61,295 nt of DNA from Acidobacteriota bacterium (GTDB taxonomy: Bacteria; Acidobacteriota; Thermoanaerobaculia; UBA5066; Gp7-AA6): positions 1 through 61,295 of the forward strand of contig DAHUXD010000029.1 of NCBI GenBank assembly GCA_027307335.1, given 5' to 3'. A program made the translations under genes and the position numbers. How positions within the stretch are numbered: position 1 is the first letter of the stretch; every line of letters begins with the position of its first letter. This document shows, piece by piece, positions 3,384-7,871 of this stretch. The notes beneath the pieces are model-generated. The model was not told where the DNA came from. It ran no database searches and was given only the letters and a program-made list of their open reading frames with translations.

Positions 3384-4646
3384 TCACGGGGTTTCGACGT
3401 CTCCCGTGATGAGACGGGCGCCGCGCTGGTACGTGAAGTAGGCCCAGGCCCACTCCATCATCACGATGATGCGGTTGCGGAAGCCGATCAGGAAGAAGAT
3501 GTGGACGAAGCACCAGAGCAGCCACGCGACGAGTCCCGAGAAGCGCAGGCCGGCGATCTCGGCCACGGCCTCCGAGCGGCCGATGACGGCCATCGTGCCC
3601 TTGTCGACGTAGTGGAAGCGGTGACGGGGTCTTCCCGCGAGCGTCGCTCGGATGTTGCCGGCCACGGCGCGGCCCTGCTGCAGGGCGACGGGGGAGAGGC
3701 CCGGGAGGGGTCGGCCCGTCTGGTGCGTGTACACCGAGAGGTCGCCGATGACGAAGACCTCGGGATGTCCGGCGACCGAGAGGTCGGGCTCGACCGGAAC
3801 GCGTCCCGCGCGGTCGAGCGGAACGCCGAGGGACCGCGCGAGAGGCGAGGCGGCCACGCCGGCCGCCCATACGACCGTGCGCGCGGCGAGGCGTTCGCCG
3901 CCGATCGAGACGCCCCGCGCGTCGACGTCCGTGACCGGCGTCCCGACGCGCACCTCGACGCCGAGGCGGACGAGCGTCGCCGCGGCGGTCTCGGAGGTCG
4001 CGGGGAGCATCGCGGGCAGCAGCCGCGGTCCGGCCTCGACGAGGACGATGCGGGCCTCGCGCGGATCGATCGACCGGAAGTCGCTGACGATCACGTGGCG
4101 CGAGATCTCCGCGATGGCGCCGGCGAGCTCGACGCCGGTCGGGCCGCCGCCGACGATCACGAACGTGAGGAGGTCGCGGCGGACCGCAGGATCGGTTTCG
4201 CGCTCGGCCTGCTCGAAGGCGAGGAGGATCCGGCGGCGGATATGGATCGCGTCCTCCAGGGTCTTCAAGCCCGGCGCGTCCTTCTCCCAGGCGTCGTGGC
4301 CGAAGTAGGCGTGTCCCGCGCCGCCCGCGACGACCAGGAAATCGTAGGGCAGTGAACCGTCCGCGAGCCGGACTTCGCGGCGCGCGACGTCAATGGCGAC
4401 CACCTCGGCGAGGAGCACGCGCGCGTTGGCCTGATGCCGGAGGATCGAGCGGATCGGATACGCGATGTCGCCGGGGGAGAGCGCGGCCGTGGCCACCTGG
4501 TAGAGCAGCGGCTGGAAGAGATGGTGGTTGCGGCGGTCGACGACGGTCAGCTGGACCGGAACATGGGCGAGCGCGCGCGCCGCCGCGAGGCCGCCGAATC
4601 CGGCGCCGACGACGATGACCCGGGGTCGCCCGGCCGGGGAATTCAT
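3384..4646 (-). CDS. NAD(P)/FAD-dependent oxidoreductase, NDH-2-like
   Basis: The 420-residue protein has two dinucleotide-binding motifs, GAGFGGLAAARAL at the N-terminus for FAD and VIVGGGPTGVELAGAIAE in the middle for NADH, and the second FAD-contact motif GDLSVYTH followed by ALQQGRAVAGNI. The C-terminal helix (LLWCFVHIFFLIGFRNRI) is the membrane-attachment segment of single-subunit type II NADH:quinone dehydrogenases, which pass electrons to quinone without pumping protons. ATG at 4646 is preferred because of the A-rich AAAAGGG in front; a GTG at 4658 is the alternative and adds four residues. Divergent from the small-peptide gene to its right. Confidence 0.88.
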   Translation of the reverse strand: MNSPAGRPRVIVVGAGFGGLAAARALAHVPVQLTVVDRRNHHLFQPLLYQVATAALSPGDIAYPIRSILRHQANARVLLAEVVAIDVARREVRLADGSLPYDFLVVAGGAGHAYFGHDAWEKDAPGLKTLEDAIHIRRRILLAFEQAERETDPAVRRDLLTFVIVGGGPTGVELAGAIAEISRHVIVSDFRSIDPREARIVLVEAGPRLLPAMLPATSETAAATLVRLGVEVRVGTPVTDVDARGVSIGGERLAARTVVWAAGVAASPLARSLGVPLDRAGRVPVEPDLSVAGHPEVFVIGDLSVYTHQTGRPLPGLSPVALQQGRAVAGNIRATLAGRPRHRFHYVDKGTMAVIGRSEAVAEIAGLRFSGLVAWLLWCFVHIFFLIGFRNRIIVMMEWAWAYFTYQRGARLITGDVETP

Positions 4647-4798
4647 GGCCCTTTTCACTCTATCTCTCGAAATCCCAGCAAGATCGGGGCCTGTCCCCGG
4701 GGACGGTTGACGTCACCGCCCGGACTTGTGGTGAAATGGTAGCGATTCGTTTTCGGCTCGGTTCTCGAGCCCGTTTCGAAAAAGGAGTTGAGAAGCTC

Positions 4799-4936
4799 AT
4801 GACTACCTCCAACGCTCCCGCCCGAGTTCCCGAGCGCCAGCCCGAGCCGAACACGACGTCGCGCCCGGCGACCGCCAGCGGCGCGAAGAAGCCGAACCGC
4901 TTCGTCATCAAGATCGCGGGTACGATTCCCGTCTAA
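4799..4936 (+). CDS. 45-residue peptide of unknown function (candidate signal or modified peptide)
   Basis: The reading frame has an AAAGGAG Shine-Dalgarno 11 nt before ATG and a clean TAA stop. The product has a polar, Pro/Thr/Ser/Ala-rich half without hydrophobic character, then a basic, hydrophobic C-terminal end, KKPNRFVIKIAGTIPV. It has no Sec signal and no cysteines. A TTGACG hexamer at 4707-4712 could be a -35 element, although no good -10 is seen. The next two genes (sigma-region-2-like protein and TPR protein) follow on the same strand after 79 bp. A longer ATG start at 4736 is possible but has a poorer ribosome site. I do not recognise the peptide. Confidence 0.55.
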   Translation: MTTSNAPARVPERQPEPNTTSRPATASGAKKPNRFVIKIAGTIPV

Positions 4937-5015
4937 CTTTTGAGCCCTCGGCACTTCGCGATGTGACGCTGGCGGTTGGAACCGTCGCGGCGGTGGTGTA
5001 ACCTTTAGGACCACC

Positions 5016-5378
5016 GTGGAAAAGAGCTCTCCCCGTCGGCCCGACGAAGTCGAGTCGGTATTTGCGCTGACTCTGGAGGTCATCCATTCAGCGCTGGTGG
5101 GCTACTACCAGCTCACCGAAGACGAGGCGCGCGGCGCCGAGGAAGACCTCTACGTCTGGTTTCAGAGGTTGTCGCGCCGGGGCGGCGCGGGACACATGCC
5201 GGCAAAGCTCCTTCGCATCTCGCTTCTGTCCGCGGCCTGCCAGTACGGCCGATCGTTCCAGCTCTGGAAGCTCGGCGGCGAGAAATCTCCGGACGCGCAC
5301 TTGAACGAGCTGCTCGCCCGCGAACCCGACGAGGTCGCCGGAGACCTCGATCGTCGGTTCAAGGAGGACCGGTCATGA
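5016..5378 (+). CDS. 120-residue protein resembling sigma-factor region 2 without region 4
   Basis: GTG start after TTTAGGACCACC. The protein is all-helical in appearance: VIHSALVGYYQLTEDEARGA and EEDLYVWFQRLSRR parallel the region 2.1-2.2 helices of ECF sigma factors (the 'D/E-x-x-QE-x-F' type amphipathic helix), and LLRISLLSAACQYGRSFQLW sits where region 2.3-2.4 would be. No region-4 helix-turn-helix follows; the protein simply ends after a charged tail. This resemblance is by eye only. Its stop overlaps the ATG of the next gene (ATGA), so the two proteins are made together. It could be a sigma-derived regulator or a protein-binding helical bundle. Confidence 0.6.
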   Translation: MEKSSPRRPDEVESVFALTLEVIHSALVGYYQLTEDEARGAEEDLYVWFQRLSRRGGAGHMPAKLLRISLLSAACQYGRSFQLWKLGGEKSPDAHLNELLAREPDEVAGDLDRRFKEDRS

Positions 5379-6481
5379 CCGGCCGGGTTCTTCCGTTTCG
5401 AGGACGGCCCCTGTCCTCCGAGGCGGGACTCCGGGCCGCCGAGCGCGTCTTGTCGACGCCGCTCGATGAACGGACCGCGAAGGCGAAAGCGCTTCACCTC
5501 GAGGATCCGGAGACGCTCCTGGCTCTCTGCGGAGTGCTTCGGGAGCGCATCAGCGCTTCGCCGGCCTCGGTGAAGGAGGAGGCCCAGTTCCTCTATCGCT
5601 TCATCGAGAGCCCGAGGCGAGAGATCGGCCTCTTCGACGAGCGCGATTACTTCCTGGGCGAGACGGCTCTGCTCGCGGGGACGGCGTGCCGATGCCTTTC
5701 TCAGCGCGAGGACGCCTGGATCTGGTTCGACCGCGCCGAGGCCGGATTCCGGCACACGATGAACGCTCCCGCCGAGTTGTCGCGCCTTTCCTATCAGAAG
5801 CTCGCCGAGCGGCTCGAGGAGCGGCAGGTCGATCTCGTCCTCGAGCTTCTGCCGTCCCTCTTCGAGAGCTTCCAGAAGCTCGGGATGCCCGAGGACGCGC
5901 TGAAGTGCCGGTTCCTCGAGGGCCTCGCTCACTTCGAGAAGGACGACCCCCTGGGCGCCATTCGCGTCTTCAATGCGGTCTGTCAGCAGGCCGACGAGCT
6001 CGGCAGCCAGACGCTTCTCGCCGATTCGTACGTCAATCTGATTCACGCCCACGGGCTGCTCGGAGAGGCGGAGGCGGCCATCGAGGCATCGCGGCGCGCG
6101 ATCCCGATCCTCCGGGCGGTCGACAACCGGATCTCGCTCGCCAAGGTTCACTGGGGCCTGGCGACGCTCCTCCGCGAAGAGGGGCAGCTCCGCGAGGCCA
6201 TCGACTCCTATCGCAAGGCCCAGGAAGACTTCGAGGCCATCGGCATGCGCGCCGACATCGCCGCCCTGAACCTCGTCGTCGCCGACCTGCTCCTCGAGGA
6301 GGGGCGGAGCGTCGAGGCGCTGCGCGAGATCTCCGAGGCGCTGCCGGTCATCGCCGAGCTGAAGATGGCGCCGGAGGGAATGGCCGCGCTCTCGCTCGTG
6401 CGCGAGTCCGTCCGCCGCCAGGAAGTGAACCGCCAGGCCCTCCGCGAGCTCCACGGATACTTCCAGGAGCTGCAGAACTAG
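5375..6481 (+). CDS. TPR-like helical-repeat protein, 368 residues
   Basis: From about residue 90 the protein shows successive helix pairs of about 34-40 residues with TPR-like spacing and Ala/Leu/Tyr patterning, for example AVCQQADELGSQTLLADSYV, LLGEAEAAIEASRRAI, AKVHWGLATLLREEGQLREA and IDSYRKAQEDFEAIG. No catalytic motif, signal peptide or membrane segment is present, so it is a cytoplasmic scaffold or peptide-binding protein. It is translationally coupled (ATGA) to the sigma-region-2-like gene and lies downstream of the 45-residue peptide gene. Size and architecture recall Rap/Rgg-type TPR regulators that bind short peptides, although those are Firmicutes proteins and no homology is claimed. 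Confidence 0.75.
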   Translation: MTGRVLPFRGRPLSSEAGLRAAERVLSTPLDERTAKAKALHLEDPETLLALCGVLRERISASPASVKEEAQFLYRFIESPRREIGLFDERDYFLGETALLAGTACRCLSQREDAWIWFDRAEAGFRHTMNAPAELSRLSYQKLAERLEERQVDLVLELLPSLFESFQKLGMPEDALKCRFLEGLAHFEKDDPLGAIRVFNAVCQQADELGSQTLLADSYVNLIHAHGLLGEAEAAIEASRRAIPILRAVDNRISLAKVHWGLATLLREEGQLREAIDSYRKAQEDFEAIGMRADIAALNLVVADLLLEEGRSVEALREISEALPVIAELKMAPEGMAALSLVRESVRRQEVNRQALRELHGYFQELQN

Positions 6482-6514
6482 CGCGGCGGAATCCCGGCTC
6501 GCGAAGCGGCGGGA

Positions 6515-6619
6515 TCAGCCCTCGCGCGAGTGCCGCATGATCGTTTTCCGCTTCGCGCTCTTCCTCGCCGCCTTCTTCTTCGCCGCGGTTTTCTTCGAGG
6601 CCCCTCGCGTCTTCGGCAT
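6515..6619 (-). CDS. 34-residue Lys/Ala-rich basic protein
   Basis: A short frame between two convergent-divergent neighbours encodes MPKTRGASKKTAAKKKAARK and then SAKRKTIMRHSREG. Composition is like the tails of bacterial histone H1-like or HU-extension proteins, or small ribosome-associated proteins. The upstream ribosome site is poor (GGAG only two bases from the ATG) and no homologue can be checked here, so it may not be expressed. It is listed because the frame uses GC-rich third positions and occupies a gap that otherwise holds nothing. Confidence 0.35.
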   Translation of the reverse strand: MPKTRGASKKTAAKKKAARKSAKRKTIMRHSREG

Positions 6620-6641
6620 GGCTCCATCGTAAGCTGCCCGG

Positions 6642-7871
6642 GTGCCGCGCGTCCTCCTGCTCCTGCCGACGACGAGCTATCGGATTCCCGATTTCCTGGC
6701 CGCCGCGGAGAAGCTCGGCGTCGAGGTCACCGTCGCGTCGGAGGAGCCGAGCACGATGGAGCGCCTCAATCCGGCGGGGCTGCTGACCCTCGACTTCGGC
6801 GATCTCGAAGGGTCGGCCGATCGCGCCGCCGGGTTCGCCGGGAGGCATCCGGTCGCGGCGGTCGTCGGCGTCGACGAGCGGACGGCCGTCGCCGCCGCGG
6901 CGATCTCGGGGCGCCTCGGGCTGCCGCACAACCCGGTCGAGGCCGCGCGGGCCGCCGGGAACAAGGCGCGGATGCGGGAGCTGCTGGCGCGGGCCGGCGC
7001 GCCGCAGCCCGGGTTCCGCCTCCACGCGATCGACGAGGATCCGGCGACGGCCGCCGGGGCGACCGCGTTCCCGTGCGTCCTGAAGCCGACGTTTCTCGCC
7101 GCGAGCCGCGGGGTGATCCGGGCCAATGACCCCGCGGAATTCGTCGCCGCCTGGCGCCGCATCGCGCGTCTCCTCGACGAAGCGGAGGTCGCCGCGCGCG
7201 GGGGAGCCGCGGCGCGGGAGATCCTGGTGGAGCGCTTCGTCCCGGGCATGGAGGTGGCGCTCGAGGGCCTCCTCGATGCCGGCCGGCTGCGGGTGCTCGC
7301 GCTCTTCGACAAGCCCGACCCGCTCTCCGGCCCGTACTTCGAGGAGACGATCTACGTCACGCCCTCGCGCCTGCCGGAAGACGTGCAGGCCCGCGTCGCC
7401 GAGGTGGCGGAGGCGGGGGCCCGCGCGCTCGGGCTCGTGCACGGACCGGTGCACGCCGAGATGCGCCTCAACGACGACGGCGTCTTCCTCATCGAGATCG
7501 CCGCCCGCTCGATCGGCGGGCTCTGCGCCCGGACGCTGCGCTTCGGGACGGACCTGTCGCTCGAAGAGCTGATCCTTCGGCACGCGCTCGGCCAGGTCAC
7601 CATCGCGCAGAGGGAGCGGCTCGCGGCAGGGGTGATGATGATCCCGATTCCGAAGGCGGGCGTCCTCGAGGAGGTGCGGGGCCTCGACGCGGCGCGCGCG
7701 ATCCCCGACGTCGCCGACGTGACGATCTCGGCCGCGTGCGGTCGGCCGATCGTGCCCCTGCCCGAGGGCGACCGCTATCTCGGCTTCGTCTTCTCGCGCG
7801 CGGAGACGCCCGCTCGCGCGGAGGCGGCGCTGCGCGAGGCGCACGCGAGGCTGGAGTTCGTGATCCGCTGA
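6642..7871 (+). CDS. ATP-grasp domain protein, carboxylate-amine ligase type
   Basis: The GTG-started 409-residue protein has an N-terminal Rossmann-like pre-ATP-grasp part (VPRVLLLLPTTSYRIPDFLA) and a central ATP-grasp fold. Visible elements are NKARMRELLARAGAPQPGF, the phosphate-loop strand FPCVLKPTFLAASRGV, the LVERFVPGMEVALEG stretch, and the metal-binding MRLNDDGVFLIEIAARSIGG. Such enzymes activate a carboxylate as an acyl phosphate and join it to an amine; the substrate is not evident. The C-terminal 70 residues (YLGFVFSRAETPARAEAALR) match the small domain of biotin-carboxylase-like or amino-acid ligase-like ATP-grasp proteins. No functional partner is adjacent. Confidence 0.85.
   Translation: MPRVLLLLPTTSYRIPDFLAAAEKLGVEVTVASEEPSTMERLNPAGLLTLDFGDLEGSADRAAGFAGRHPVAAVVGVDERTAVAAAAISGRLGLPHNPVEAARAAGNKARMRELLARAGAPQPGFRLHAIDEDPATAAGATAFPCVLKPTFLAASRGVIRANDPAEFVAAWRRIARLLDEAEVAARGGAAAREILVERFVPGMEVALEGLLDAGRLRVLALFDKPDPLSGPYFEETIYVTPSRLPEDVQARVAEVAEAGARALGLVHGPVHAEMRLNDDGVFLIEIAARSIGGLCARTLRFGTDLSLEELILRHALGQVTIAQRERLAAGVMMIPIPKAGVLEEVRGLDAARAIPDVADVTISAACGRPIVPLPEGDRYLGFVFSRAETPARAEAALREAHARLEFVIR

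Follow-up and report, generated by a model that had tools for sequence, protein, structure and literature searches.

Locus and gene content

The analysed window is the whole of a 61,295-nucleotide stretch from an Acidobacteriota bacterium (GenBank assembly GCA_027307335.1, contig DAHUXD010000029.1, positions 1 to 61,295 of the forward strand), which corresponds to contig C26 of a 4.37-Mb genome (G000, in the following the own genome). Three consecutive genes, preceded by a short DNA element, were located between positions 4726 and 6481:

4726..4749, + strand, DNA element TTGTGRTNNAATN6GWTTCG, 24 bp, specific to the cassette, its end 50 nt upstream of the peptide ATG
4782..4787, + strand, AAGGAG, ribosome-binding site for the peptide, read from the sequence
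ATG 4799 to stop 4936, + strand, peptide gene, 45 aa, ORF read from the sequence
GTG 5016 to stop 5378, + strand, 120-aa gene, product sigma-region-2-like and without region 4
ATG 5375 to stop 6481, + strand, TPR gene, 368 aa, product modeled as an all-helical repeat, without zinc finger

All three open reading frames of a preliminary description of this DNA were recovered at the same positions, with the stop of the 120-aa gene overlapping the TPR gene start by ATGA. Pfam detected TPR repeats in the TPR protein (TPR_12, E 9e-10) and yielded no match for the peptide or the 120-aa protein. No sigma-70 promoter was found in the region, and a terminator search returned one terminator-like site against 1.8 expected. 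We considered and rejected a structured leader RNA or a ribosomal attenuator ahead of the 120-aa gene, as positions 4500-6700 gave no Rfam match and the fold of the 82-nt gap a z of -1.0.

The gene after the trio (6642-7871), which we take to be ATP-grasp-like, recurs 1.5-3 kb downstream of the trios in G001 and G002:C5, so that these two and the window trio lie at one syntenic place. The gene divergent from the peptide is presumably metallopeptidase-like in three of the four trios found (L037:1-1896, L036:2863-5736, L034:2-3667), and the one in the window presumably NADH-dehydrogenase-like.

Conservation of the trio

Profile searches took in 100 genomes, three of which (the own genome, G001 and G002) constitute family f1. 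The trio is present at four places (window, G001:C218, G002:C5 and G002:C90), covering 3/3 f1 genomes and 0/97 others, and at all four the peptide gene lies directly upstream of the 120-aa gene, followed by the TPR gene. The preliminary description had tied its interpretation to co-occurrence of the three genes in relatives, and this co-occurrence was found; overall, its interpretation is supported in part. The frames are open, with 34-54% identity to those of the window across genera. A 120-aa profile built from five rows matched six places in 3/100 genomes, all f1, and in 5/5 aligned pairs the 120-aa and TPR genes are adjacent, overlapping or nearly so. The trio genes are confirmed as real and as retained together.

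Further f1 sites depart from this layout. Contig C23 of the own genome carries a sigma-like/TPR pair (TPR identity 39%), followed by a pair of a region-2 protein and a TPR protein (C23b). An orphan f1-type sigma-like gene of 149 aa is found in G002:C41 (L073:4596-5045), with neither a TPR gene nor a peptide called beside it, and in G002:C58 a TPR frame at the contig start is interrupted by a stop.

Peptide

The four peptides share a conserved P.RVPERQP-like N-terminal part (VPERQP in the window) and an IK..x.IP[VT]-like tail, separated by a variable middle; the window peptide ends in FVIKIAGTIPV and has no signal sequence. A peptide profile run against the 100 genomes gave four strong matches (E 5.2e-19 or better), all f1 and identical with the sequences that make up the profile, with the next best at E 0.0015. 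In a single-sequence phmmer search of 1724 six-frame ORFs, the window peptide retrieved its counterparts in G001 (E 5.7e-7), G002:C90 (8.1e-5) and G002:C5 (5.9e-4); the last value is borderline against the best of 100 shuffled queries (8.8e-4), and the assignment of the G002:C5 peptide therefore rests on its position. Ribosome sites of the AAGGAG or CAGGAG type precede 4/4 peptides. Because amino acids are conserved at both peptide ends, a mere leader is disfavoured. A candidate peptide before the first C23 pair of the own genome (L004:7847-8008, minus strand) is poorly conserved and ends in LNSVAGSVPF.

DNA element

The element TTGTGRTNNAATN6-7GWTTCG precedes the peptide genes. In three of the trios the distance from its end to the peptide start is 33-50 nt; the G002:C90 trio contains it in degenerate form only. 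The pattern TGTGRTNNAATN{5,8}GWTTCG has four occurrences in the three f1 genomes, at the window, G001 and G002:C5 trios and at C23 of the own genome, and was derived from those same four places, so that only its absence elsewhere is informative. A relaxed search, with the gap fixed at 6 and at most two mismatches, added five places. One of these, G002:C102:19618, has a single mismatch and is situated at a contig end beside genes that we take to be helicase-like and D-Ala-D-Ala-carboxypeptidase-like; the same pair flanks C23 of the own genome, and from these shared flanking genes the place probably marks a broken G002 counterpart of the C23 cassette. The other four have two mismatches each and no adjoining cassette gene. 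The element goes with the cassette; the rest of the three f1 genomes is nearly devoid of it. An element common to f1 and other families was rejected: searches of G003, G005 and G022 for the core TTGTGATNNAAT found no copy, and family f7 has a different dyad.

The f7 dyad, GTAGGGA-N14-18-TCACTCC, is of nearly constant spacing and resembles an ECF promoter, with about 70 occurrences in eight genomes (G022, G025, G034, G040, G046, G049, G058, G061) against one when the pattern is reversed. Genes preceded by the dyad include some that code for cassette sigma factors (L152, L160) or cassette peptides (L050, L120, L129, L130), along with many others. Separately, the 5' leaders of f7 peptides (L038, L084, L085, L127, L128) contain a hairpin in which the outer stem CCCTCC pairs with the ribosome site GGAGGG; the inner stem sequence varies between genomes, and the five folded gave z values of -0.9 to -3.5.

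The 120-residue protein

Profile alignment with hhalign matched the 120-aa family to 17 cassette sigma factors with a probability of 62 and an E-value of 7.6e-5 across 102 columns, over region 2, against a probability of 0.38 in a control alignment with the TPR family. Beyond region 2 the frame encodes two more helices and then stops, without a region 4, which bears out the earlier label of a sigma-region-2-like protein lacking region 4. The core-binding DAED motif of region 2 is altered, with the position reading DEAR; for EcfP, loss of a DAED-type motif accompanies dependence of the sigma factor on activation (PMC8999054, in excerpt). The 120-aa gene occupies the same gene position as the sigma factors of related cassettes. 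The C23b region-2 protein of the own genome, 116 aa in length and likewise without region 4, was recognized by Sigma70_r2 at 39.3 bits, against a cut-off of 24, and has as its partner a TPR gene from the same f1 TPR clade; comparing the 120-aa family profile to this single protein gave a probability of 0.3 and no support.

An AlphaFold model of the 120-aa protein, computed with four sequences, reached a pLDDT of 85.4. Searched with this model, Foldseek returned no sigma fold and no match at E 0.001, and VIA no sigma factor chain among the best 50 matches listed. A PhyR chain appeared in the VIA list at rank 10 (Z 5.8, 2.7 Å over 69 residues), below the trustworthy level and surrounded by unrelated helical proteins with Z up to 6.8; the match covers the N-terminal PhyR residues 3-71. 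A PDB sequence search with the 120-aa family found none up to E 1. We regard it as probable that the protein is a diverged sigma region 2, a putative identity for which the profile alignment, the gene order and the sigma-region-2 neighbour argue.

The TPR protein

The TPR label of the preliminary description held up, with Pfam repeats and a model of paired helices forming an all-helical repeat (pLDDT 88.5, four sequences). Neither a DNA-binding domain nor a membrane part was found in the protein. Foldseek placed eukaryotic LGN/Pins, crystallised with peptide partners, at the top, and the first natural bacterial matches were RapF, the Rap proteins of phi3T and pLS20, and RapJ. A PDB sequence search ranked designed and eukaryotic TPR proteins above NprR (1.2e-9, 4.5e-10) and RapJ (2.7e-7). 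TPR superhelices look alike regardless of what they bind. The fold matches are compatible with a peptide receptor, in agreement with such a role and no proof of it. Searches against NCBIfam gave only weak or TPR-like matches for the window and class-wide TPR proteins and no named family, and a PADLOC search for anti-phage defence systems no match for four proteins. The likeness to the HaaT protein of a RiPP system (29 bits) is confined to the repeats and far under the model cut-off of 1125.

An f1 TPR profile aligned to the TPR proteins of other class families over nearly the whole length (hhalign probability 100, E 2.1e-40, 343 columns), and the six f1 proteins group together as a single clade (100/100) in a TPR tree. 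The N-terminal HxxxCxxC zinc finger is absent from the window protein. In f2, a family of the same order, L115 has a GRTLPF motif after the zinc-finger-like part, and the window protein starts at a similar GRVLPF, a start position that fits loss of the finger; the f2 protein L113 also starts shortly before GRTLPF. Judged by sequence, the TPR protein is a shortened form of the class-wide TPR family.

Sigma/TPR/peptide cassettes across the class

The class-wide TPR relatives are mostly 410-465 aa long, and in many of them the N-terminal part resembles a zinc finger; Pfam zf-HC2 was detected in 5/30 at E 0.01, and HxxxCxxC-like motifs were seen by eye in more. Neighbours of their genes are small ORFs that encode a signal sequence, and genes for sigma factors 160-210 aa in length. 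Among 24 sigma proteins scanned, f1 included, Sigma70_r2 was found in 14 and r4 in 14. The zinc finger is likely the sigma-binding part of these TPR proteins.

For counting, 62 loci chosen by TPR match and not by peptide were read by script, with a gene caller and a signal-sequence rule that are simple custom scripts and not standard programs. Of 61 TPR-family genes scored, 36 were accompanied by a sigma gene and 39 by an SP-like ORF (control, other genes at the loci: 21/209). A filtered set of 46, from which four f1 genes, L086, contig-edge genes and genes above 560 aa had been omitted, contained 35 with an SP-like ORF, 30 with a sigma gene, 24 with both and five with neither, leaving 11 without the ORF and 16 without the sigma gene. 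Two TPR genes on C23 of the own genome were missed by the gene caller and stand outside these counts.

A proline lies within the last five residues of 27/36 script-found peptides (permutations 16.8, sd 2.9; 3/5000 as high) and of 36/45 cassette peptides (permutation mean 20.8, sd 3.2; 0/5000 as high), figures that overstate the case, as related peptides are not independent. The set of 45 includes nine by-eye additions (four f1, four f2 and L122), which favour the proline result, and manual curation before the test discarded a false SP-like ORF at L037, which is the end of the sigma-like gene there, the ORF of L086, and one of the five at L090. Likeness between families is confined to the C-terminal proline. 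The f2 cassettes have small ORFs with a hydrophobic start and ends such as TPIG, GPIN, KPIGG and GPIGG, picked by eye. The exported-type peptides of f11 and f14 (L046, L048, L049, L051, L075-L082) share ends resembling G-x-[ILVM]-[DN]-P-x-G, which sets them apart from those of f7.

Eight cassette family members occur in one genome, G057 (L043, L048, L075-L080). Tandem exported-type peptide genes were observed beside a TPR gene at L090:4436-5205 (four copies), L044:8143-8605 (two) and L038:1172-1650 (two). Many paralogues with distinct tails, together with tandem peptide copies, fit ligand-receptor sets.

In the phylum, the TPR profile had any match in 17/119 genomes. A full-length TPR family outside the class was rejected, since matches there at 1e-20 are to frames of 600-1230 aa and cover part of the profile only.

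The trio would accordingly be a reduced, leaderless and f1-specific variant of a wider class cassette of sigma factor, TPR protein and peptide. This kinship is the strongest support for the idea of a sensing circuit. The cassette family is apparently wider than the trio and unreported: no description was found in the literature searched, whose scope did not extend to preprints and many subscription papers.

Comparison with known systems

RRNPP(A) systems (Rap-Phr, NprR, PlcR, Rgg-SHP, leaderless LCP/RopB) share with the trio a small, conserved peptide gene adjacent to a TPR protein without membrane part; in the window the gene's status as a propeptide is putative. The receptor feature, a TPR superhelix, is seen in the window protein. 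Peptide quorum sensing of the RRNPP kind has been described in Firmicutes (PMC10075063 and PMC10518010, both in part), where leaderless peptide signals are also known (PMC10518010, in part). The window trio differs in its host phylum, in its sigma-like output partner, in that no DNA-binding domain was found, and in a receptor from a distinct TPR family, most of whose members carry a zinc finger. The preliminary description had limited the similarity to Rap-Phr to layout; the likeness in layout, with the peptide gene beside the TPR gene, stands. Rap structures are, in addition, the first natural bacterial fold matches to the TPR model.

In the class-wide relatives, zinc-finger TPR proteins are paired with sigma factors, an arrangement that recalls ECF sigma factors with soluble ZAS anti-sigma factors, from which the window pair differs in having neither region 4 nor zinc finger and in including a peptide gene in the set. 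In ECF42, sigma factor and TPR act together, and the sigma factors require their fused C-terminal TPR extension (PMC8999054, in excerpt); the window instead has separate proteins, region 2 only, and a peptide. SigO-RsoA of B. subtilis, a documented split sigma factor, likewise has a region-2-only protein encoded beside its partner (PMC8103513, in excerpt), the partner there being a region-4 protein and in the window a TPR protein.

Proposed mechanism and alternatives

The trio looks like a small signalling circuit, previously undescribed. Our preferred reading, put forward tentatively and as something short of probable, is that of a reduced class-wide cassette in which a complex of the sigma-like and TPR proteins is controlled by the peptide tail, with feedback on the peptide gene. 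The two proteins, encoded by overlapping genes, would form the complex, and the TPR superhelix, as the receptor, would bind the peptide by its C-terminal tail (a hydrophobic residue, proline and one more residue). Peptide binding may alter whether the sigma-like protein acts on RNA polymerase, in a direction that we infer. The peptide gene, through its own element and a presumed reader of it, would be part of a feedback loop, and the leaderless peptide may act within its own cell or leave it by a non-Sec route. Against this reading stands that all three components deviate from the class cassette, the peptide lacking a signal sequence, the TPR protein a zinc finger and the sigma-like protein region 4.

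It is rather doubtful that the peptide is instead the product or effector, small and membrane-active or modified, with the sigma-like/TPR pair regulating its gene through the element. The situation of the element before the peptide gene suits this, as do the cationic amphipathic stretch that related exported-type peptides often have (by eye) and the weak HaaT likeness of the TPR protein; however, that likeness is confined to the repeats, the conserved part of the peptide in f1 is a short tail, and visual reading of the loci revealed neither a modifying enzyme nor an exporter common to the surroundings of the four trios.

We hold it unlikely that the region-2-like and TPR proteins form a split sigma factor, jointly binding RNA polymerase as RsoA does with SigO, here with the TPR protein in place of region 4. 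The tight coupling of the two genes in all five pairs and the missing region 4 speak for such an arrangement, and SigO-RsoA (PMC8103513) and the TPR dependence of ECF42 (PMC8999054), each in excerpt, offer precedents, but the TPR model shows no obvious counterpart of region 4, and the acidic core-binding motif is not kept, with DEAR at the DAED position.

Marginally less likely still is a sigma mimic, in which the 120-aa protein would titrate a partner in the manner of the sigma-like domain of PhyR, a mechanism with precedent in the portion of PMC8103513 that covers it, while the TPR protein holds or releases it. Loss of region 4 and the altered core-binding motif agree with a mimic, and the PhyR chain match points the same way yet lies under the level at which it could be trusted.

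A last alternative, very improbable in our view, would see the trio as the functionless, decaying leftover of a cassette that used to be complete. Zinc finger, region 4 and signal sequence are all absent, the C23 peptide of the own genome is barely recognisable, and the family also contains an interrupted frame (G002:C58) and an orphan gene (G002:C41), but the trio frames have stayed open across genera at the identities given above, with ribosome sites and element retained.

Returning to the circuit reading, its extension to the class is offered a shade more cautiously than the reading itself: the class may carry a large undescribed set of proline-tailed peptides that are read by dedicated TPR anti-sigma proteins controlling a sigma factor, with the window trio as a leaderless, region-2-only branch. 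If true, this would be peptide quorum sensing with a sigma output outside Firmicutes. The region-2-only partner raises the question of the minimal portion of a sigma factor needed for regulation, and the repeated sigma/TPR/peptide cassette would give soil Acidobacteriota a route of cell-cell signalling.
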